Below are positions 47,893 through 62,012 of a stretch of 64,000 nucleotides of DNA, piece by piece. The notes under the pieces are model-generated. The model saw only the letters and a list, made by a program, of their open reading frames with translations. It searched no databases and was not told where the DNA came from. Source of the stretch: Chaenocephalus aceratus (lineage: Eukaryota; Chordata; Actinopteri; Perciformes; Channichthyidae); assembly GCA_023974075.1 (NCBI GenBank), contig CM043800.1, positions 22,138,218-22,202,217 on the forward strand, read 5' to 3'. Position 1 is the stretch's first letter. Every line of letters begins with the position of its first letter. A program made the position numbers and the translations under genes.

Positions 47893-49158
47893 TGTTTAGA
47901 GTAGGTGAGGTCCTGATAATTTATTCCGGTAAATTACTCTGACCTACTAATTGACCTGACCGAAGTTACTGAGTCTATGTAAGTTTACTGCTTGGCTCAG
48001 ATCCACCAACGTCAGCAAGATCTCAACTCTACTAACTCCCCGAAGAACCAGGTTCAATTAACTGCTGTTTCTATTCAGACAACTCTTTTTTAATATGTTT
48101 AAGGGATCCCGAAGGATTTTGATATCAGTAAATGAGGTGTGTTCCTACCTAAGTGTGTGTGGCAGGGTGCAGTCTTACCTTTGAAGCAGGAGAGGAGAGC
48201 ACAGATTTTCTTTTTAGTTGTCCCAATCCAAAAGGTGAGATCAGTTTATTTGAAGAAAAATAGGTCCAAACTAATACAGAGTCTTTACCTTTTAACACAT
48301 TATAATCATACAAAACATATCATGCTGGGGTTATATTTTTTATCTAAAACCTTAATTCATATTCATTTTATTCCCGTGCGTACGCCTTCCGGGTATACCT
48401 AAATAGTGTTATTCATTTGATTCCTGTACGTTTCTAATAACGTCTTCCAGGTAGATCTAAATAGTGTTATTCATAAGATTCCTGTACGTTTCTAATAACG
48501 TCTTCCAGGTCGATCTAAATAGTCATAAGATTCCTGTGCGTCCGAACAACGTCTTCCAGGTATATCTAAATAGTCATAAGATTCCTGTACGTCCGAACAA
48601 CGTCTTCCAGGTATACCTTACCGAGAGCCATCTAACCCAGCTCTGAGGGCCAGAGCTTACCGGGAGAGAGTATACCAGGGGTTTCCCCCTCTCTCCCCCC
48701 GAAATCCAAAAAAGCCAGTCTTTTTATGCTCAAAAAACCGGATAGAAACACCACAAACACCTCCTCTATACCCAACCAACATCTTCTATTGGCTATGGCA
48801 TAAGACACACCTTCCCAAGTTTGTGTAAAAAAACAAAACATGACTAGACATGACTATGGCTATGACATAACCACCTTTTTGAGGCCTCAATGTGTTTCTC
48901 CTTAAGTCCGGAGCCCCCCTCCCTGCTGTGAGAGGAGAGGAAAGAACCTGCCTACTCTCTTATCAGAGAGTAGGGCATAAATCATTATAAGTCTTACACT
49001 CAACTTAACAAACCACTTTGTTTTGTTTATGCTGTAAATATAGAAAAACCTAAAATATGAAGCATTTTCATTGTGGGTTATACAAGAATATAATTGATTA
49101 TATTTGATTATAACTAACTTTTGTTTTAAGTATTCAACATACTATGAAGCTCTCAACA
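47893..49158 (-). repeat. ERV 3' LTR (1266 bp)
   Basis: Colinear with 60645-62012 apart from two fewer 51-bp units (48370-48617) and scattered substitutions. On the minus strand GCATAAAAAG (48720-48729) is a TATA-like box, with the repeats downstream of it, i.e. in the expected R/U5 part. Confidence 0.88.
48370..48617. repeat. 51-bp tandem repeats in the ERV 3' LTR (about 5 units)
   Basis: Units carry AACGTCTTCCAGGTATATC and AAATAGTCATAAGATTCCTG. Some units are longer, with an extra TGTTATT. Confidence 0.85.
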
Positions 49159-49238: not shown

Positions 49239-49738
49239 TGTCATAGTCTGCTCCATCATTCACCAGTAGTTTTCCATTCACCTGTCTCACCTGTTTTCCA
49301 CACCCACTCGTTAACTCACTCTCTTTCTCTTCTGCACCCATTAGCTTCTGCCAGTATTTAAACTCGCACCTGACACACACTCTTTGCCAGATTGTACTTT
49401 GCCTCATGCTTGTCTCTCCCGCGTTCAACACTAGATTGCCTACCCGGTTCCGACCCTGCCTGTCCCCGACCTGCCTGCTCTGCCTGTTTCCTGATCCTGC
49501 CTGTCCCTCGACTATCCTGCCTGGCCTGTTATCCGACCCTGCCTGTATCTACGCTGACCGCCTCGCTTACTCCCTGACCCTCTGCCTGTCCCTGACTCAC
49601 CTTCTGCCCGCTGTCCTCCGGTGCGTTATACTGCCCGGTTGGTATTCCTCCGATCCAGTGGAATCTCCAATAAAGGATATTACCAATTCTCCTTGGTTTC
49701 TCGAGTGCTGCATTTGGGTTCTCCTTAAGATTGTGACA
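49239..49738 (+). repeat. Gypsy 5' LTR
   Basis: TGTCATAGTC...GATTGTGACA, 500 bp. Contains the TATA-like TATTTAAA at 49355-49362. Confidence 0.93.
49355..49362 (+). promoter_or_regulatory. TATA box of the gypsy LTR
   Basis: TATTTAAA, with the predicted transcription start about 25-30 nt downstream, near 49384-49387, where the sequence is GCCAGATTGT. Confidence 0.6.
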
Positions 49739-49740
49739 GA

Positions 49741-49750
49741 ACAATCTGGC
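49741..49750 (+). promoter_or_regulatory. Primer-binding site, self-primed type
   Basis: ACAATCTGGC starts two bases after the 5' LTR. It does not begin TGG as tRNA-primed sites do, but is an exact complement of GCCAGATTGT at 49386-49395, near the predicted RNA 5' end. This matches the self-priming of Tf1/sushi elements. Confidence 0.65.
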
Positions 49751-49756
49751 CAGAAC

Positions 49757-50770
49757 ATGGACCCAGCGCACTCCTCTTCACCAAGAGACCGTTTCGAGAG
49801 AGTTGAGGACGCTCTCCAGAGGCAGGAAGCCTCGATAGCCGCCCTGGCCACCGAGGCTCATCATGCTACATCTTCACATGACCAGACGCTAACCTATTTA
49901 GCTGCGCAACTACAGCAGCTAACGGCTACGGTGCAGCAGCTAGTGGCAGGAGTGGCCGCTCCAGCGCCTCTTCCTATGCCGTCGACACCCGCTTCTGCAT
50001 CACCTCTGATGGGATTTACCCCGGAGCCTCGGGTGGGAACTCCGGAGCGCTACGCCGGGGAACCGGAGGGCTGCAGCCCGTTTCTTACGAACTGTTCTAT
50101 CCTGTTTGCACTGCAGCCACACACTTTCGCTTCTGAAGCTGCTCGTGTGGCATTCACGGTCAATCATTTGACTGGGAAAGCCCGACTGTGGGGCACAGCG
50201 GAATGGGAGCAACAAACACCCGCCTGCTCTTCGTTCCCCGCTTTTTCTGCGGAGCTGCGCAAGGTGTTTGGACCCGTGTCTGTGGGTCCAGACGCTGCAG
50301 GAGGACTATTGAACCTGAGCCAGGGTAATGGATCTATAGTGGATTATGCCATTGAGTTTCGCACCCGGAGCCGCCTCAGCAACTGGAATTCTGCAGCCCA
50401 GTGTGACGCCTATCTGCGTGGGTTGGCGGATTACATCAAAGATGAGCTTGTGTCGTTTGATTTGCCCAATTCACTGGATGGGTTGATTGAACTGACTTCC
50501 CGCATGGATCGGCGCATCCAGACACGGAGACGGGAGCGACGATCGGCGGAAGTTCAACATGCCTGGGCGCCCCGACGTCCGAGTTTGGCTGCGACTCCTC
50601 ACCTCACTCCAGAGCCGCAACCAGGGGGGGATGAGCCCATGCAGGTGGGTCGTACCAACCTCACTTTGGAGGAACGTGAGCATCGCAGACGTCGTAACCT
50701 GTGTCTCTACTGCGGCCGGGCCGGCCATTTCGTTTCTCACTGCCCGGTAAAAGGCAAGGCTCAGCAGTAA
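49757..50770 (+). CDS. gag: Gypsy gag (337 aa)
   Basis: The structural protein that assembles the intracellular particle and packages the RNA. Residues ~13-75 are a coiled coil ([19 protein letters not shown]...[12 protein letters not shown]). A proline-rich linker (78-100) precedes the capsid-like region (~105-270, with [17 protein letters not shown] and the [14 protein letters not shown] retrotransposon gag core). The single CCHC zinc knuckle [14 protein letters not shown] lies at residues 316-329. The start is the first ATG after the primer-binding site; the open frame extends upstream into the LTR, but transcription starts near 49385 and no earlier in-frame ATG is preferred. It ends in TAATG, overlapping the likely pol start. 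Confidence 0.9.
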
Positions 50771-53700
50771 TGGGGAACATACTGGTGAGCCAAACCCCTG
50801 GATTTGTTCCCACTCAGAGACCATTGAGCCACGCCAGGTTGATATTGCCGGATAGCTCTCAGGCTCTTGCAGTTTTTATTGACTCTGGTTCGGACGCGAG
50901 TATTATGGATGAAGAGCTTATGCTGCAGTTGGGTATAGACCGGGTTCCCTTATCTCGCCCAGTTCCAGCCAACGCCTTAGACGGTCACCTGCTGGGGACA
51001 GTGACTCATCAGACTGTACCCGTTCACATGCTCCTGTCTGGGAACCATCACGAGACTATTCAGTTTCATGTTCTCCGGTCTCCACATATCCCGCTTATCC
51101 TGGGTTACCCATGGCTCCGCCGCCACAACCCTAACATTGACTGGGAGACGGGAGCCATTTTGGGATGGAGCCCCTCTTGTCATCAGATCTGTCTGAAACA
51201 GGCTGCCGCGCCTCAACGCTCGGGGAACCCCAGCCAAGTTCTGGATGTTACAGGAGTTCCACCGGAATATCTGGACTTCAAGGAAGTATTCAGCAAGTCG
51301 AGGGCTACTTCCCTACCACCACACCGGCCCTACGACTGTGCCATCGACCTGCATCCCGGCACCAGCCCTCCCAGGGGTCGATTGTACTCCCTGTCTGCTC
51401 CGGAAAGAGTTTCCATGGAGACTTATATCAATGACGCTCTGGCGGCTGGGATTATTCGCCCGTCCTCATCACCTGCTGGCGCAGGGTTCTTCTTTGTAGA
51501 GAAGAAAGACAAGACCATAAGGCCCTGTATCGACTTTCGGGGTCTTAATGACATTACAATCAAGAATCGATACCCACTGCCTCTTATCTCTTCTGCATTT
51601 GAGTTGTTGCAGGGAGCAACCATATTCACGAAGCTGGACTTGCGTAACGCGTACCACTTGGTACGTATTCGCGAGGGGGATGAGTGGAAGACCGCCTTCA
51701 ACACCACCTCGGGGCACTACGAGTACCTAGTCATGCCTTTTGGGCTTACCAACGCCCCTGCAGTATTCCAGGCGTTGGTAAATGATGTGCTCCGAGACAT
51801 GTTGGACCGACACGTGTTTGTTTACTTGGATGACATCCTGATCTTTTCCAAGACACTGAAAGAACACGTGCACCACGTCCAGGCGGTTCTCAGGAGATTA
51901 CTCGAGAACTCGCTGTTTGTTAAAACGGAGAAGTGCGAGTTTCACACATCCTCTGTCTCTTTTCTGGGATACATCGTGGGACAAGGGAGCATCGAGATGG
52001 ATCCTTCCAAGGTTGATGCAGTCACTTCCTGGCCGGTTCCAGATTCCCGGAAGCGGCTACAACAGTTCCTCGGGTTCGCCAACTTCTACCGGAGGTTCAT
52101 TCGTGGATACAGTACCTTGGCCGCTCCTCTCACAGCCCTGACCTCCTCTAAGGTCATGTTCCAGTGGTCCTCCTCGGCTGAGGAGGCATTCCAGAACCTT
52201 AAGGCGAGGTTCACCTCCGGCCCCATCCTCCGAGTACCCGATCCTGTAAGACAGTTTGTTTTGGAGGTGGATGCTTCTGATATGGGGGTGGGAGCCATCC
52301 TGTCTCAGCGAGCAATGGACAGCCAAAAACTCCATCCCTGTGCTTTCTTTTCAAAGCGTTTGACTCCAGCGGAAAGGAATTATGATGTGGGAAACCGGGA
52401 GCTGCTAGCAGTGAAGTTGGCTCTGGAGGAGTGGCGTCACTGGCTCGAGGGGACCAGTCAACCTTTCCTGGTGTGGACCGACCACAAGAATTTGGAGTAC
52501 ATCCGGTCGGCCCGCAGACTGAATTCCCGACAGGCTAGATGGGCCCTTTTCTTCACTCGGTTCAATTTCTCCCTCTCCTACCGCCCTGGTTCTCGGAACA
52601 TTAAGGCTGACGCTCTTTCTCGTCAGTTTGGAGAGGGAGGTAACATTCCCAGGGGCTTGGACACCATCCTTCCGACTTCTCAGCTCGTCGCCGCCCTCAT
52701 CTGGGAGGTGGAGGAGAGGGTCAAGGCTGCCCAGCAGGACCAGCCGGGACCCAGTGCCTGTCCTCCGAACCGCCTGTTCGTTCCGCAGACGTTGAGGTCT
52801 GATGTTCTCCAGTTGGCTCATAACTCCAGACTCACCTGCCATCCTGGGATCCAACGCACAGGGGAGGTAGTCCAGCGAAGGTTCTGGTGGGCAACACTTA
52901 AGGAGGACACCAGGGAATTTGTTAATGCCTGCCCCGTTTGCAATCAGAACAAGTCTTCTCACCAAGCTCCTGCTGGTCTCCTACGACCTCTGCCTATCCC
53001 TCATCGCCCCTGGTCTCACATTTCTTTGGACTTTGTTACTGGTCTGCCACCGTCCAACGGACACACTGCCATCTTGACGGTGGTAGACCGATTCAGTAAG
53101 ATGGCTCATTTTGTGCCGATACCCAAGCTCCCCTCAGCTAAAGAGACGGCAGAGCTGGTCCTGCTCCATGTGTTCCGGCTCCATGGGCTGCCTACTGATG
53201 TGGTTTCCGATCGTGGTCCTCAATTTACCTCGGTGTTCTGGAGGGAATTCTGCACGCTCCTTGGGGCCACGGTCAGTCTGTCATCCGGTTTCCATCCGCA
53301 GTCCAACGGTCAGACTGAAAGGAAGAACCAGGAGATGGAGACAACCTTACGATGTATAGTCTCCAAGAACCCAGCGGCCTGGGCTAAACAGCTGCTCTGG
53401 GTCGAGTACGCCCACAACACTCTGGTCAGTTCGGCCACCAAGCTGTCCCCATTTCAGTGTGCTTACGGGCTTCAACCCCCTCTGTTTCCGGCCCTGGAGA
53501 GGGAGGTTACCTGTCCGTCCGTCCAGGCTTTCATCCGTCGTTGTCGACAGACCTGGAATCAAGCCCGGAGAACTCTCGTCTGTTCGGCCAACCGGTACGC
53601 CTCCTCTGCCAACCGCCGACGTTCTGAAGCACCTGTCTACCAGGTGGGCCAAAAGGTATGGCTTTCCTCCCGGGATATTCCTTTACGGGTGGATTCAAAG

Positions 53701-54225
53701 AAACTTGCACCTAAATTCATTGGACCGTTTGAGATTGTCAGAATAATCAATCCCGCAGCAGTAAGGCTAAGACTGCCTCGGACTCTGCGGATCCATCCCA
53801 CCTTCCACGTTTCCAGGATCAAACCTGTCCGAGAGAGTGCCTTGGTTCCTGCGATCCCTCCCCCACCACCCCCCCGGATGATTGACGGCGGGCCTACGTA
53901 CACTCTCCGACGACTTCTTCGTTCCCGTCGCAGAGGAAGAGGAGTCCAGTACCTGGTGGACTGGAAGGGTTACGGCCCTGAGGAGAGGTGTTGGGTTCCA
54001 GCTCGTCATGTGTTGGACCCCCGGCTCATCAGGGAGTTCCATCGGCGTAATCCCGAGCAACCGTCTAAGACCGTCACGTTGACGGGCAGAGACACAGGGA
54101 GAGTCTCTCCTCTTACCGTCAGCTCTTCCGAGGAGGACAGCGAGGGGCAGGCTTCTGATGAGGATGCAGATTCCCACAGGGGGCAGGAGAGGGAGGCGGA
54201 AAGAACTTTTTCAGATGAGTACTAA
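50770..54225 (+). CDS. pol: Gypsy pol polyprotein (protease-RT-RNase H-integrase-chromodomain, 1151 aa)
   Basis: Replicates and inserts the element. Protease: [10 protein letters not shown]38. Reverse transcriptase: about residues 210-400 with [11 protein letters not shown] and YLDD at 352-355. RNase [13 protein letters not shown] and the [16 protein letters not shown] block. Integrase: HHCC finger ([10 protein letters not shown]...CPVCNQNK) and a core with D754, D814 and E850, i.e. 35 residues between the last two. C-terminal chromodomain near 1055-1100 ([17 protein letters not shown]), which targets integration to marked chromatin in chromoviruses. No stop or frameshift is seen. The ORF is open from 50701, in the -1 frame relative to gag; the ATG at 50770 overlaps the gag stop. 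All catalytic residues seem present, so the copy may be competent. Confidence 0.93.
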
Positions 54226-54296
54226 TCCCACCTCCCACCTTCATCTGTAGATTAGCATTTAGGGACGTCAGGAGCCGTCCATTAAGGGGGGGGTTC

Positions 54297-54796
54297 TGTC
54301 ATAGTCTGCTCCATCATTCACCAGTAGTTTTCCATTCACCTGTCTCACCTGTTTTCCACACCCACTCGTTAACTCACTCTCTTTCTCTTCTGCACCCATT
54401 AGCTTCTGCCAGTATTTAAACTCGCACCTGACACACACTCTTTGCCAGATTGTACTTTGCCTCATGCTTGTCTCTCCCGCGTTCAACACTAGATTGCCTA
54501 CCCGGTTCCGACCCTGCCTGTCCCCGACCTGCCTGCTCTGCCTGTTTCCTGATCCTGCCTGTCCCTCGACTATCCTGCCTGGCCTGTTATCCGACCCTGC
54601 CTGTATCTACGCTGACCGCCTCGCTTACTCCCTGACCCTCTGCCTGTCCCTGACTCACCTTCTGCCCGCTGTCCTCCGGTGCGTTATACTGCCCGGTTGG
54701 TATTCCTCCGATCCAGTGGAATCTCCAATAAAGGATATTACCAATTCTCCTTGGTTTCTCGAGTGCTGCATTTGGGTTCTCCTTAAGATTGTGACA
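54297..54796 (+). repeat. Gypsy 3' LTR
   Basis: 500 bp; no difference from 49239-49738 was found on reading. Confidence 0.93.
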
Positions 54797-54801
54797 CAAG
54801 A

Positions 54802-54893
54802 AGCATTCTCATTATGGGTTCATACAAGAATATGATTGATCATATATGATTTATAATTAACTTTCGTTTTAAGTATTTACTTCATACTATGAT
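54802..54893 (-). repeat. Extra partial ERV LTR start with second polypurine tract
   Basis: AGCATTCTCATTATGGG...ATGATCTCAACA is a diverged copy of 49060-49158, and is followed by CCCTCTTTTTAAAACGC as at 49159-49175. So the U3 start, polypurine tract and adjoining ~50 bp occur twice in tandem in the ERV, with the gypsy element inserted between them. Confidence 0.7.
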
Positions 54894-55352
54894 CTCAACA
54901 CCCTCTTTTTAAAACGCAAAGTTATCAAACAGCAACAGATAAAATCGTAAAAACATATACATATTACATACGTAAAACTTCAAGCATCAATATCATGAAA
55001 AGTTCTTCAGTATGTGTAATCAGGACGACCTTTTGATGAACCTGGTGTGAAAAACACCGAAAACATAGTACCTCACTGGAATGTTCTTGTTATCACATAG
55101 GTCAGGCACCCGAGTAAAAAGAGTCATGATGATCATAGATTTGTGCGCACCCCCACTCGGCCTGGCACTTGCAGAAGCGGGGCCTATCTGTGGTTCCGGT
55201 GTAGACTCCTAAATCCATGTTGCTATCTGATGTAAATCCTGGACCCTGACCATGGAGGGGTTGAGGTTCCTCCCTGGATGACACCTCCAAACGAAAGCCA
55301 GATAACTCGGTCGACAGTTGTTGTGGATTTTTTAGACCTCGTCAATAATCGC

Positions 55353-55539: not shown

Positions 55540-57780
55540 CTACCGTCTCTCCCGGTCTGTGACTACGACCTTGCAGTGGTTGACGTGGATCCACGTAGCT
55601 CTCTCGGTGACCTTGACCGCTGTCTGGGTGACGAGGAGCACCTGGTAGGGCCCTTGCCAACGGTTGGATTTCCAGCTCTTTCTCCGGAAGTCCTTGACCA
55701 GCACGAAGTCGTTGGAGATAGTGAAGTGGACCAGTGTCAGGGGTAGGTAGGGCTGCTGCTACCTGGCGTCTGATATCTGACCATGCAGTTATCAGGTAGT
55801 CGTTGTCCTTTTTTGGGAAATCCACTGCGATCGGGGTGGCTCAGCGGGTAGAGATGCAGCCTGTCCCTCAGAGCTGGAAGAAACATCATCCTCCACTGGC
55901 AGGGGTACAGGTGACTCAGCCGCTGGCTCCATGCTGCACAGGTTTCCTGGGTCCAGGACTTGGCTTCACTTGAGGCACTGTGACTGAAGTTGTCCCGCTA
56001 GGCAGGTTCAAATCCTCTTGGTAGATTGCTGAGGTATTAATCTCAACAATATAGCTAAGATCAAGTATAAATCATTTTTCTGATTCATAAAAAGTTGTTT
56101 TCAGTTTAAAAACTTCCCCAAGGGTTTTCTCAAGCACTGGGCCATAACTTACTCTTATCAGTTTAACGACTTGACAGCCCTGCACCTCCATGCTGTGTGA
56201 AAACCAGCAAAAAAGAAGGAGGAAGATGTGCTCAAAAAAATCTAATTTAAATGAATACTGTTGTAGGGTGTAGGTATATAACAATTAAAATAACTGAAAA
56301 GAAAACTAATAGTGTAAAATTAAAAAACAATGATAAAAATAATACAAAGGTTATTTCCCATTCCCTCTTTGATACTGAGGTATTCTCCATTCAAGCTCTA
56401 ATGATCCATATGCTAATAGACAGAGTTTCGTCTTGCCATCTTTCTTTGCATAATGCACTAAAGATTCTAACAGTTCTACTGCTAAATACTTTGCATTTGA
56501 GATATTGCTTGTTACTCAGACCTAAATTCCCTCTTTTGCTCTATAAAATATCCCTTGGTACCGAATTTACCAAGACAAATTCTAAATTATTGCAGGAAGA
56601 TCCCACAAAAAGCCATCCTCTCCTGTGGAAGAAAGCACATTAACTGCCACGGGTGTGTGCAAAACATGTCATGTGATGTGAGACTGATAGCATCAACAGT
56701 GGATTGGGTAGGCCGCAGTCATATTCCTATCTGGATTCTAAACTCAGTTGGCTCGGGTGAACCGGTCCTCTCTTCTGGAGTGAAACTACGTTCTCAGAGA
56801 TTGACTTCACTGTATCCAAACCTTCTGATTTAGTTTTAAGCTACCCCTTCTCTGGACTTCGCCCCTTTCTGGTCACCCATACACGATTTCTGAACTTAAA
56901 CGGAAAAGGTGTGATAGTTAGATATGACCTGACCTTTGCCCTAGGTAGCTTTTCCATACATATAGGAATATATTCAGCCTTGTCAAATTGATTGGAATGT
57001 CCCAATTTGTTTTACATATGTCAGCCCTAAAACTGATTAGTGGTTCTTCCTCTATTATTTTAAGATGCTCAGGATGAACTTTCTTGAACCCATCCACCTC
57101 TACACATTGAAGACATGTTGACCGTGTGTGTTGTAAGTGCAATCGCAGTTTCGGTATAAGGATTTTATTGTGGAGACAATATGTTCTCATCCGAAATAGG
57201 CCACATGGCCTAAACTGCTGTGTAATTCACGCACAACCTGGGGAGCGTTCTTCAGGGGGTACGTGAATGCTTCCACCCTTTTTCCATATTCTAGGGAATA
57301 TGGCAGTCAGGTGGTTAACTCTTCCCCGGCTTTAAGCAAGGTAAAACTTCTCTATTACCCTGATAGTCTAATTTTATCTTATCTGTATGGCTACGGACAT
57401 GATTCCACTCTAGGTACATGCCTGCTCTTAACTCTGCAATAAGACCCTCACTTGAAGGGCATGTGTAAGTGCTTCACCTTTCACATTGGTAAACTGCCTT
57501 TGTTCCCAGTTATTAAGCTCTTCTTTACCCGCTTTGTAACAATACGGATGTGTGTTATTTTACGTTGTTTTGCAAAAAGAAGTCCCTCAACAAATGGCCT
57601 TTGCCTCAGCAGTTTGTGCTGTACCTAGTATTGCACCCTTTTGCTTGCAAAGTACTTCACCTGAATTAGTTTTCATTATAAAGGCCCAAGTGGCTGCTTG
57701 GTCACCTTTTCGCAAACTCCCCTCTGTAAACAGTGTTATCTTTGGAGCAGCGGTTTTTCTTTAAGGGTTTCAATGTTTCC
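55540..57780 (-). pseudogene. pol: ERV pol remnant: RNase H and integrase pieces
   Basis: Order on the minus strand. RNase H, about 57740-57350: KGDQAATWAFIMKTNSGEV, then TAQTAEAKAI and, in another frame, LEWNHVRSHTDK. Then a CLQC-containing segment (56918-57190) that may be the integrase zinc finger. Last, the integrase C-terminal SH3-like domain, 55540-55740: NRWQGPYQVLLVTQTAVKV and WIHVNHCKVV, typical of gamma/epsilon-type retroviruses. The section 55850-56900 could not be assigned and the D,D,E core was not found. Multiple frameshifts and stops. The protein is non-functional. Confidence 0.6.
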
Positions 57781-57894
57781 CTGTGTGGCTTACTTCCTGT
57801 GGTCCTAAACTCCACATCTGGATCAGACATCATCCTCTGCCATTTTCCATTCTTATTCTCTCAGTTTTTTGATATTGATATTTTTGTTCTGGTG

Positions 57895-58249
57895 TTAAGA
57901 TAATTTTTTTCTTTTTAATCTCCCTCTTTTCTTAACAACTGGAGCTATGTCTATTTTAGATCTGACTTGGTCAAGAGTTGATTTGTTCTTTGGTGAGAGG
58001 AACACTCTTCCCCTTGTGCTTGGTGGGGGTGGGGGTGGATAGCCTGCTTGAGGATAGTTTCTTACAATATCCATCTTCCTCTCTGTGCTGAGGCCATACA
58101 ACTTTTAATGGGTCGCTCCGTGGTCTGCTCAGATTTTCTTCCCCTCCAGAGGTCACACCTGTCTCTGACCCTGTGTGCTGGGTTTTTCTGCAGCACCTCG
58201 GGAGCAGAGAAAGGGGGAGATTTTTTTCCAAAAGTGTAAGCTCCTTCAT
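57895..58249 (-). pseudogene. ERV internal region of unknown role, basic and proline-rich
   Basis: Two overlapping minus-strand frames: one with PPPPPPST and a basic end KKRGRLKRKK, the other serine/threonine-rich. They lie between the macro domain and RNase H, where gag C-terminus, protease and RT would normally be. The basic patch could be a nucleocapsid-like segment, but no CCHC knuckle is seen. Confidence 0.3.
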
Positions 58250-58640
58250 GAGAAAAATAGTTTAGTTGATTTTGGTAAAGTATTTGAGCTTTAGCTTCGC
58301 AAAAAACTTCTTCATATTAGTTTTGAAGATATTGTTGGGGTTTGATATCTGCTGATAGTTCCCACTTAGGTTTTATTTTAAAAGTACATGCAAAACAACC
58401 AGTATTTGTGGGTCATCTGATCACCACCTTGCCTTCTGACAGTTTAATAGTCCTTATCATATTATCACTCTGTGCTAGGACCTATTCTCTTTGCCAGAGC
58501 TACTGCTATTCCTCCTGCATGTTTTAGCTTCCTATTAGCAGGGTTCACTAACATGGTTTGTTGATCTAGTTTAAGATTTTCAATAATTGACATTAATTAT
58601 TTCCAACATTCCTTTTCCCTGAATATCATGTCTAACAATG
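58230..58640 (-). pseudogene. Macro-domain (ADP-ribose-binding) remnant in the ERV
   Basis: On the minus strand, MLVNPANRKLKHAGGIA (from about 58554) matches the signature of macro domains (VN.AN..L.H.GG.A), including the loop that binds the distal ribose. Before it, RHDIQGKG and INVN strands fit the start of the fold (about 58639-58580). After it, EGKVVI, a stop, TNTGCFACT and PKWE fit the following strand and the PKW/GPRW position, then YEEVFCEAKAQ fits the next helix. The pieces lie in two or three frames with several stops, so it is a decayed copy. The NPAN/HAGGIA style is closest, from memory, to PARP9/14-type macro domains. Family assignment is fairly strong; placement in gag or between gag and pol is unknown. 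Confidence 0.6.
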
Positions 58641-58655
58641 TGTTTTCTTCTAGGA

Positions 58656-58943
58656 TTAGTAGATACTCATAAATGGCATTTGTGAGCTTTTATCCCTGTA
58701 GGGTGGAGGTAGGGTCTCAGACATTATACCACCTGCTTGTTGCTCTCTGTCCAAACGGTAGTCTGACAGGAAAGTATTTAGGTCGCGATACGCCCGTGGG
58801 TCTGGGCTAAGCTGACCAGGGCGGGCAGAAGCTCCGGATTTAGCTTCTGTGTATCCCTCCCCATCTGAAGTTGGCTCCGAGTCATTAAATTGCATTCTAA
58901 CTTCATCAGCCATTCTTTTTATTTTATTTTTTATTTTATTCAA
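58656..58943 (-). pseudogene. gag: ERV gag-like ORF with PPPY late-domain motif
   Basis: A 95-codon frame on the minus strand with a basic N-terminus (NKIKNKIKRMADEV), an acidic/serine middle, and ETLPPPYRDK near the end. PPPY is the classical retroviral late motif that recruits NEDD4-type ligases. It is the first long ORF after the leader, fitting the start of gag. It ends in a stop at 58656; in the next frame YEYLLILEENTLLD continues towards the macro domain, indicating a frameshift. No capsid homology is recognised. Confidence 0.45.
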
Positions 58944-59047
58944 GGGTTTACGTTCACTCTTTTATACACATGCAAGTTTCTAGGCTTTTACTCACACCGG
59001 AGGATCAGTCCGACTATACCGTCACTTGGTTCTAGGTTACTCTTCTG

Positions 59048-60080
59048 CAGTGTGCGAACTATACCACGGTCTCCAGGGGAGCCGGGATTTATTTATTTTT
59101 TGCGGGGGGGGTGGGTAAATGCTGATCCGTGCATTAATAGCAACAGCACAGACATAGGCCTATTATAAAGAGAACATCTGTTACACACAGGGTGGTGACA
59201 CAGGTCTACATTTACATGAAACGTCCCGATGGATCATGTTCATGTCAACAGATTACCCGAGCATGTATGGGCTACGCACACTTCAATCAACTTGATAATA
59301 AATAATCCACGGACCACCATTGTAACGTTTGACTGTTTAATGAAATCAACTTAAAATGACTCAAAAACAGGCTACATTGTTTCACATGGGCTATAGCCTA
59401 TTATGGCTGTAGCCTACACAGAGCCGAACACACGCGATAAGAGCAGCCAGTGACACCAACCATGAACAATATTAATATTAATAATACAGCTATAGCACAA
59501 CACAACCCTCTCACTGCCTGGAGAGACGCGACGCCACACACACTACACAACGGCTCGTCTTCTTGTGTCTCTTCAGCCCCCAAGTTAACGTTAGCTGTCA
59601 AGTTAGCACTAGCACTGACCTTAGCTCCCTCCTCTCTCGGTTCTGTTGTACGATATGCTACCACCAGCTACATTCGGTTGGTCTTCTTGATCAGGTTGTT
59701 TGGCCGTCTTTTTAAAGAAATTGCCCAAGGTACGTTGTTTTTTTCTTTTCGACATGTCAGCAGCAGCAACAATGCCTGGTAAACATGCAGTGCTAACTAA
59801 ACGAGCTTGTGAGTGAGTGGGTAGTGGGTGGAGCTGCGGGCAGCGTGCACGGTGCAAGCAGGCGACACTTTTTTCATGAATCATAAACTCTAAATATAAT
59901 TTTATTTCACTTATTTTACACCTTTGAAAAAAAAAACATGCCCAAAATGGAATTTATTTGGTCATCATATCAGTATTTTAGAGAGCTCCCCCCAAATTTC
60001 ACAAACCATGTTCCCAGGGGAGCTCATGTCACCACTAGGGGAGCTATAGCTCCCCCTGCTCCCCTCCAGTTCGCACCCTG
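59048..60080 (-). mobile_element. hAT element inside the ERV leader
   Basis: Ends CAGTGTGCGAACT and AGTTCGCACCCTG, with a perfect 8-bp duplication CTCTTCTG (59040-59047 and 60081-60088). GGGGAGC repeats occur near both ends. Contains one transposase exon. Confidence 0.9.
59621..59755 (-). pseudogene. hAT transposase N-terminal exon
   Basis: From the ATG at 59755 the frame reads MSKRKKQRTLGNFFKKT, the typical start of TTF/ZMYM-type hAT transposases. It is followed by an acidic linker and no catalytic domain. Confidence 0.5.
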
Positions 60081-60626
60081 CTCTTCTGGATTCAGCTAGT
60101 ACATGCGGACACCTCAGTTAAGAGTGTTATGTATCGAGCTTCGAGCTGTTTCAACAGCATAGGTACCTTTACCTATGTTTATCTTTATTAAATCTCCTAT
60201 TAACTCTTCCCCACGTTATGTTTTAACGCAAAAGTTCAAACCGCAGCTCTTTGTCAAGTCCTACCTATAAGTTTCAAAGTAATTTGGACAGATACTGAGC
60301 AGTGCTCCTACGGCTGACTTCACTACTAGCCACCAAACCTGTGTTAAAGGGACCACAGGGGCTTCCCAATTTGGCTAGGGGAAGAAGAATCTACTTTAGC
60401 TTCTTTAACAGACAGCAATATCCGATATAATATAACCCTCAGTCCGGTGCAATAGTATCAACTTAAATTACTACACTTTTAGGTTAAAATATATATTCTA
60501 GGATTCGGGTAGGTATTTTAACAAGACTTTCAGCCTGTATTTCGCTGATTTGTACTCATCGACTTTTTTCACTAGGTCGTTTTGGTTCTTGTATTTTGAC
60601 TCTGTAAAAGTATTACTTTTCACAGA

Positions 60627-60644
60627 GCCCCACGTTGGGCACCA
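60627..60644 (-). promoter_or_regulatory. ERV primer-binding site, tRNA-Lys(1,2)-like
   Basis: TGGTGCCCAACGTGGGGC on the minus strand directly follows the 5' LTR. It differs by one base from the tRNA-Lys1,2 site used by spumaviruses, visna virus and Mason-Pfizer monkey virus (TGGCGCCCAACGTGGGGC). Confidence 0.75.
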
Positions 60645-62012
60645 TGTTTAGAGTAGGTGAGGTCCTGATCATTTATTCCGGTAAATTACTCTGACCTACT
60701 AATTGACCTGACCGAAGTTACTGAGTCTATGTAAGTTTACTGCTTGGCTCAGATTCACCAACGTCAGCAAGATCTCAACTCTACTAACTCCCCGAAGAAC
60801 CAGGTTCAATTAACTGCTGTTTCTATTCAGACAACTCTTTTTTAATCTGTTTAAGCGATCCCGAAGGATTTTGATATCAGTAAATGAGGTGTGTTCCTAC
60901 CTAAGTGTGTGTGGCAGGGTGCAGTCTTACCTTTGAAGCAGGAGAGGAGAGCACAGATTTTCTTTTTAGTTGTCCCAATCCAAAAGGTGAGATTAGTTTA
61001 TTTGAAGAATAATAGGTCCAAACTAATACAGAGTCTTTACCTTGTAACACATTATAATCATACAAAACATATCATGCTGGGGTTATATTTTTTATCTAAA
61101 ACCTTAATTCATATTCATTTTATTCCCGTGCGTACGCCTTCCGGGTATACCTAAATAGTGTTATTAATTTGATTCCTGTACGTTTCTAATAACGCCTTCC
61201 AGGTCGATCTAAATAGTCATAAGATTCCTGTACGTTTCTAATAACGTCTTCCAGGTAGATCTAAATAGTGTTATTCATAAGATTCCTGTGCGTCCGAACA
61301 ACGTCTTCCAGGTATATCTAAATAGTCATAAGATTCCTGTATGTCCGAACAACGTCTTCCAGGTATATCTAAATAGTCATAAGATTCCTGTACGTCCGAA
61401 CAACGTCTTCCAGGTATATCTAAATAGTCATAAGATTCCTGTACGTCCGAACAACGTCTTCCAGGTATACCTTACCGAGAGCCATCTAACCCAGCTCTGA
61501 GGGCCAGAGCTTACCGGGAGAGAGTATACCAGGGGTTTCCCCCTCTCTCCCCCCGAAATCCAAAAAAGCCAGTCTTTTTATGCTCAAAAAACCGGATAGA
61601 AACCCCACAAACACCTCCTCTATACCCAACCAACATCTTCTATTGGCTATGGCATAAGACACACCTTCCCAAGTTTGTGTAAAAAACAAAACATGACAAG
61701 ACATATTCTATGGCTATGACATAACCACCTTTTTGAGGCCTCAATGTGTTTCTCCTTAAGTCCGGAGCCCCCCTCCCTGCTGTGAGAGGAGAGGAAAGAA
61801 CCTGCCTACTCTCTTATCAGAGAGTAGGGCATAAATCATTATAAGTCTTACACTCAACTTAACAAACCACTTTGTTTTGTTTATGCTGTAAATATAGAAA
61901 AACCTAAAATATGAAGCATTTTCATTGTGGGTTATACAAGAATATAATTGATTATATTTGATTATAACTAACTTTCGTTTTAAGTATTCAACATACTATG
62001 AAGCTCTCAACA
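60645..62012 (-). repeat. ERV 5' LTR (1368 bp)
   Basis: Longer than the 3' LTR by exactly 102 bp, two 51-bp repeat units. TATA-like GCATAAAAAG on the minus strand at 61574-61583. Confidence 0.88.
61135..61471. repeat. 51-bp tandem repeats in the ERV 5' LTR (about 7 units)
   Basis: Same unit as at 48370-48617, with two extra copies. Because 51 is a multiple of three, it produces an artefactual plus-strand ORF of repeated 17-residue units (61288-61500). Confidence 0.88.

Follow-up and report, generated by a model that had tools for sequence, protein, structure and literature searches.

A PARP14-type macro domain fused to Gag in a probable foamy-like endogenous retrovirus of the icefish Chaenocephalus aceratus, and its broken remnant in a deleted subfamily

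The window, that is the whole stretch of 64,000 nucleotides of Chaenocephalus aceratus DNA that was analysed, holds a minus-strand provirus whose LTRs and recognisable internal parts are collected in Table 1. Two later insertions obscure it. At 59048-60080, inside the provirus leader, lies a 1,033-bp hAT-like insert with 13-base inverted ends (12 of 13 bases alike) and 8-base target duplications (59040-59047 and 60081-60088), a duplication length that we take as the mark of a hAT element. The second insert, a Ty3/gypsy-like element named by eye from its pol-like frame, is nested near the 3' end of the provirus at 49239-54802 and has 506-bp LTRs that are 99.6% identical and an open frame of 1,175 codons. 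Adjoining the inner edge of the 3' LTR there seems to be a duplication, in the window (about 54803-54965) as well as in a related copy on C17 (L073:1-370), that takes in the end of the internal region, the polypurine tract and the beginning of the LTR. The GCGC found outside both LTR ends is the likely target duplication. The LTRs differ by 20 mismatches over 1,265 aligned bases (K2P 0.016), and 102 of the 104 gap columns of their alignment fall within a zone of tandem units of about 51 bases (61112-61472 and 48382-48618), the number of units being unequal between the two LTRs. From this LTR distance the window copy inserted recently, about 0.5 to 4 million years ago according to the rates of 1.46e-8 (PMC8672886) and 1.9-2.4e-9 (PMC6001957) quoted from these two sources.

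Table 1. Parts of the provirus recognised in the window; L009, L010 and L015 designate related copies or their parts elsewhere in the genome
Feature	Position	Strand	Remarks
5' LTR	60645..62012	-	1,368 bp; outer flank GCGC; paired with 47893-49158
Primer binding site, tRNA-Lys1,2 type	60627..60644	-	17/18 bases
Leader of gag-like frame with PPPY	58659..58913	-	85 codons from ATG; aligned with the L010 and L009 frames
Macro-domain remnant	58257..58572	-	upper boundary approximate; Pfam Macro on 58468-58596; 85.9% identity to L010; shared stop and length changes
Later-gag fragment, past internal deletion	57938..58173	-	68.6% over 245 bp to L009
pol remnant, RNase H and integrase start	57014..57848	-	L015 Pol residues about 644-927; tblastn 62.7% over 263 aa, E 5.8e-85, and 55% over 47 aa
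pol remnant, integrase end	56739..57016	-	L015 Pol residues about 1035-1126; tblastn 74.7% over 75 aa and 94% over 18 aa
Remnant of the ORF 3' of pol in L015	56556..56940	-	tblastn 54% over 96 aa, E 1.3e-12
3' LTR	47893..49158	-	1,266 bp; outer flank GCGC

A sequence-only reading of this DNA had proposed a macro-domain signature on the minus strand at 58230..58640, and the proposal is borne out by a Pfam Macro match to the piece 58468-58596, which reads LMSIIENLKLDQQTMLVNPANRKLKHAGGIAVALAKRIGPSTE, together with the identity of 85.9% over 815 bp between 58257-59047 and the copy L010 (G000:C17). The profile search thus returned the expected domain (E 9.7e-4), the window piece alone scoring 19.5 bits, under the Pfam cut-off of 22; against solved structures the same piece matches viral and PARP14 macro domains at E 0.002-0.003. 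Its relatives are recognised over most of the domain: L010 at E 1.8e-11 (44.4 bits), L009 on C5 at 5.9e-12 (46.0 bits) and L011 on C7 at 1e-10 (42.0 bits). Chance resemblance, for which the low score of the isolated window piece could be invoked, was rejected as vanishingly improbable because the segment is 86% identical in DNA to the frames of L010, which is open, and L009. We therefore regard the macro-domain remnant as real on the grounds of this homology.

The remnant covers about the first two thirds of the domain, including loop 1 (NPAN..HAGGIA); the alignment with L010 ends at 58257, and loop 2 and the C-terminal third are absent from the window copy. Some of the motifs first read in the window have to be placed anew. 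HAGGIA does not lie thirteen residues past NPAN but begins 8 residues downstream of that motif's first N, and EGKVVI is the counterpart of EGNVVV in L010. TNTGCF, which had been taken to stand at the expected spacing, is a frame-shifted reading of the strand that is DDPHIPVVLHV in L010; the window keeps this strand in another frame as SDDPQILVVLHV, the ancestral frame being represented by the piece SDDPQILVVLHVLLK at 58376-58420. The candidacy of TNTGCF as the second ADP-ribose loop was consequently abandoned, the real loop 2 being absent here.

Genome-wide, at least 23 Macro matches were obtained (150 of 168 candidates scored), all copy numbers given here being lower bounds; at least six are copies of the provirus family (C5, C17, C7, C418, C13 and C16:41.47 Mb), and L001-L004 resemble macroPARP exons. 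In the C17 copy L010 a single frame stays open over 1,154 codons between stops (about 1,138 counted from its ATG); it begins MADEVRTQFND and runs through the leader and the macro domain into the rest of gag. The gag frame of the C5 copy has one stop, situated past the macro part, and the leader of the lineage bears a late-domain-like motif, PPPY or PSPY. A Pfam search at E up to 1, covering the L010 frame over its first 1,049 codons, returned Macro alone, with WWE and PARP catalytic domains absent. The fully open copy has its macro domain as the N-terminal part of Gag, not as a module between gag and RNase H. The order PPPY frame, macro domain, RNase H is indeed that of the window, but it is not the native layout, because it results from the deletion of most of gag, the protease and the RT. 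In the same way, the suggested capture of a PARP-like macro domain by a retrovirus is upheld by the frame shared with gag in the C17 copy, though not as a module intermediate between gag and pol.

Downstream of gag, the C17 provirus has a pol frame of 1,130 codons, encoding RT, RNase H and integrase, then an ORF of 395 codons (L015:3177-4361) and ORFs of 146 and at least 368 codons, the last two being called env-like by position only; none of the three gave a significant Pfam match. From the matched part of its 5' LTR to the end of its 3' LTR it measures about 15 kb. The 5' LTR before 6909324 has no match to the fetched 3' LTR stretch, and the copy may therefore be incomplete at its edge. The last 432 bases of its LTRs, which can be cleanly compared, show 2 differences; a longer piece, tandem repeats included, shows 10 mismatches and 19 gap columns in 720. 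A copy on C8 (L059, C8:10709400-10712500), considered as a distant lineage on account of a translated match of 62.5% and rejected as such, differs from the C17 copy by 2 substitutions and 6 small gaps over 2,655 bp (99.66% identity), and reflects either a very recent insertion or an unpolished assembly. Being so nearly identical, it does not count as a second, independent case, and the zero distances that it gave were disregarded.

The class of the element was assigned from its Pol. Compared with solved structures, the 1,130-codon C17 Pol matches best the protease-RT chains 7ksf (E 3.6e-86) and 7o24 (E 2.1e-79), which we take to be foamy-virus chains, and then 4hkq (E 2.4e-36), presumably gammaretroviral, and Ty3 (E 2.3e-31); by this ranking it is nearest to foamy-virus Pol. 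What we take to be the 18-base tRNA-Lys1,2 primer pattern lies by the 5' LTR, with 18 of 18 bases in L010 and L009, 17 of 18 in the window and 14 of 18, ungapped, in L011. The RT of the family was found at two places, open on C17 and broken on C8, in a search that scored 150 of 4,697 candidates, the next matches being at most 37% identical, and both places have the macro segment upstream. The 395-codon ORF directly 3' of pol occupies the position of the acc3 gene of foamy-like endogenous retroviruses (FLERVs). The rest of Gag gave no match to solved foamy Gag structures (its single hit, E 0.84, is unrelated), nor did the ORF of 368 codons at the env position match a solved structure; viral contigs searched with the leader, the macro domain and the RT yielded no confirmed relative, and a protein collection searched with the macro region no scoring one. 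On the basis of the foamy-type Pol, the Lys1,2 primer site and the long post-pol ORF ahead of ORFs in the place of env, we assign the element with high confidence to the FLERVs, with a macro domain fused to its Gag.

The window copy belongs to a deleted and amplified subfamily. A DNA search with the window segment found it at no fewer than 40 places (40 of 182 candidates scored, window included), all at least 94% identical. L013 has the deletions of the window over 57017-59047, at 94.4% identity. One in-frame stop is common to all 23 aligned members of the subfamily, the window included, and is absent from L010, L011 and L014. The breaks of the domain are thus inherited and do not stem from decay of the window copy, an explanation rejected since 23 of 23 copies carry the stop; the copy that gave rise to the subfamily had a broken macro domain before it moved. 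These non-autonomous copies probably moved with proteins supplied in trans. An open later-gag piece of 322-356 codons persists in 12 of the 40 matches of a gag search (L032-L043, 97-99% identity), and the macro segment is broken in all five of these twelve whose upstream part was fetched; the open piece possibly reflects only the youth of these copies, or possibly a useful truncated Gag.

The same search bears on whether a host macroPARP exon or pseudogene was inserted only at this locus, an origin to which the kinship of the domain with PARP14-type domains could point. We reject this single insertion as highly improbable: the segment is present at the 40 or more places just mentioned, it keeps the same order with LTR, leader, gag or pol pieces in the compared copies, it belongs to an open frame fused to Gag, and the closest host frame in the set L001-L007, from a PARP14-like exon on C18, reaches only 49% identity over 53 aa.

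Another side of the subfamily is a stretch at 55543-55758 that corresponds to the C-terminal integrase domain of class I (MLV-type) retroviruses (Pfam MLVIN_C, E 3.4e-11) in an otherwise foamy-like element; part of it is also in L013 at 94%, and the deleted subfamily may therefore be a chimera of two retrovirus classes. Could the whole element be an epsilon-like (class I) retrovirus, the foamy likeness of its C17 copy having been acquired by recombination? The MLVIN_C stretch would fit such an origin, as would the epsilon-like label given to published macro-domain retroviruses in a review (PMC4977317). We nevertheless consider it quite unlikely, since the RT, the RNase H and the primer site of the C17 copy are of foamy type and the RNase H-integrase remnant of the window, a piece of which gives Pfam RNase_H at E 0.026, under the cut-off, matches the C17 Pol.

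The selection test, which opposes one open lineage to decayed outgroups, rests in its main count on 149 codons polarised by L011 and L014; pairwise values were computed for 11 copies, and L060 was left unused for its poor macro-domain alignment (dN 0.67 or more). On the branch to L010, the macro domain accumulated 18 nonsynonymous and 30 synonymous changes (dN/dS 0.17, p 1.4e-10), distributed 8, 8 and 32 over the three codon positions, and polarisation by L011 and the window gives a dN/dS of 0.23 (p 6.3e-6). On the window branch the value is 0.90 (16 nonsynonymous to 5 synonymous) and on the L014 branch 0.85 (30 to 10, plus 4 of stop type), so that the branches to these two broken copies look neutral. 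The bootstrap ranges are 0.09-0.30 for L010, 0.34-2.92 for the window and 0.45-1.60 for L014, and the comparison of live with dead branches gives p 0.004 and 0.0006. For L011 the result depends on the outgroup, with a dN/dS of 0.36 (p 0.055) or 1.16 (p 1.0). The leader yields 0.55 (p 0.08) or 0.74 (p 0.59) for L010 and, on the branch to the broken L014, 0.28 (p 0.004), so that low dN/dS values also occur outside the open copy's macro domain. The synonymous divergence between L010 and L011 is 0.22 in the leader against 0.52 in the macro domain, a difference that may be due to recombination. Taken together, the macro domain was very probably under purifying selection on the branch to the open copy; the check proposed with the sequence-only reading asked whether intact copies keep it open between gag and pol and under purifying selection, and the C17 copy does keep it open and selected, but as the N-terminal part of Gag.

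The best solved matches of the macro domain are PARP14 structures, 3vfq (E 1.1e-10) and 3q6z (E 1.6e-8), and since 3q6z is PARP14 macrodomain 1 (PMC10221186), this domain is its nearest solved relative by sequence. Loop 1 is kept in the window, L010, L009 and L011, all of which show the N-x-(A/S)-N..GG pattern. Loop 2 reads FGNGIFGYT in L011 and L062, FGNGIFRYT in L014 and L063, and FGNEISGFT in L010, a form shared by L009: in the open lineage, a Gly has become Glu and a Phe has become Ser. Hydrolases of the PARP14-macrodomain-1 type are described as having an Asn or Ser and a Gly in loop 1 and a hydrophobic followed by an aromatic residue in loop 2 (PMC10221186), to which the Gly ahead of these two is added (PMC7729036); the GIFGY of L011 and L062 fits this description and the EISGF of L010 does not. 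In SARS-CoV-2, N244D, G334V or F336L nearly abolishes the activity (PMC7729036), and G334 and F336 are, in our reading, loop-2 residues. The open lineage lacks residues on which hydrolysis depends in other macro domains. Its domain is predicted to be a binder with weak or no hydrolase activity: hydrolysis in this lineage appears improbable, and binding of ADP-ribose by the Gag-fused domain fairly likely.

The model we propose, which we consider likely as a whole, is that of a FLERV whose Gag was extended at its N-terminus by a PPPY/PSPY leader and a macro domain of the PARP14-macrodomain-1 type, in one frame in the C17 copy, the window copy being a deleted derivative. The macro domain was, as the counts on one branch show, kept by purifying selection while the virus replicated. 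Its place in Gag would mean that as much of it was made as of the capsid, and that it travelled into the virions and the newly infected cells. By analogy with other viral macro domains, it would most likely have bound ADP-ribosylated proteins in the infected cell, and the older lineage with a canonical loop 2 would probably have removed ADP-ribose as well, thereby opposing the interferon-induced PARPs; the still-open lineage, with its altered loop 2, would have retained binding with weak or no hydrolysis. In the subfamily of the window copy, the macro function was lost before amplification, mobilisation in trans probably following. Antagonism of the host PARPs, which is argued from this analogy, seems to us an evenly balanced proposition.

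The loss of the loop-2 Gly and Phe in the open lineage despite purifying selection, and the very fusion of the domain to Gag, would also agree with a macro domain that is now purely structural, a membrane or assembly part of Gag in which selection keeps the fold and not the ADP-ribose chemistry. Loop 1 (NPAN..L.H.GG.A) is however fully kept, as is GIFGY in loop 2 of the older lineage, and we consider this structural role rather unlikely, albeit worth weighing. The ADP-ribose-binding model that we prefer can be extended, tentatively and with somewhat less than even confidence, to a group of fish foamy-like retroviruses in which the first folded domain of Gag was a PARP14-type macro domain, hence many copies of an ADP-ribose reader or eraser per virion, and in which the domain stayed under selection while one lineage gave up catalysis for binding.

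Macro domains are not foreign to retroviral genomes, contrary to what the sequence-only reading assumed. Fish endogenous retroviruses with macro-domain ORFs were found by Basta et al. in 2009, according to the review that places them among epsilon-like elements (PMC4977317), and a SARS-CoV-2 paper (PMC10499221) refers to the same work on the relatedness between macrodomains of viruses and cells. As presented in that review, these elements share with the present one a macro domain inside a fish endogenous retrovirus and differ by their epsilon-like classification, the present element being foamy-like. Aiewsakun and Katzourakis (2017, PMC5512871) describe FLERVs of ray-finned fish, with acc3 as an ORF after pol, and took ORF-1 as gag from its position; these FLERVs have in common with our element the foamy-type Pol, the tRNA-Lys primer site, a very large provirus and a long ORF right after pol, and the portion of that paper available to us names no macro domain, whereas the present Gag starts with one. 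A literature search pairing foamy virus or gag with macro domain gave no title on a foamy macro domain among the matches listed. Macro-domain retroviruses of fish were thus already known, and what may be new here is a Gag-fused macro domain in a foamy-like retrovirus.

Compared with macrodomain 1 of PARP14 and PARP9, the domain shares the loop 1 pattern and has PARP14 as best solved match, but it resides in a viral Gag, its loop 2 is altered in the open lineage and its identity to the best host copy is the 49% over 53 aa given above. Coronavirus nsp3 Mac1, whose chains were matched by sequence, and the macro domains of alphavirus nsP3 are likewise virus-encoded with an NxAN..GG loop 1; they belong to replicase proteins, whereas the present domain is part of a retroviral structural polyprotein.

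In conclusion, the best-studied viral macro domains are those of RNA-virus replicases, to which a fusion with a retroviral structural protein offers a contrast. If our model is correct, the conflict between PARPs and macro domains would extend to the foamy-like retroviruses, through a structural protein that was under selection and recently active. The genome of C. aceratus would then hold a dated record of this conflict, in the form of an older catalytic loop of canonical type next to a newer, altered one, and the exchange of catalysis for binding would mirror the repeated loss of macro-domain activity reported in host PARPs and in alphaviruses.
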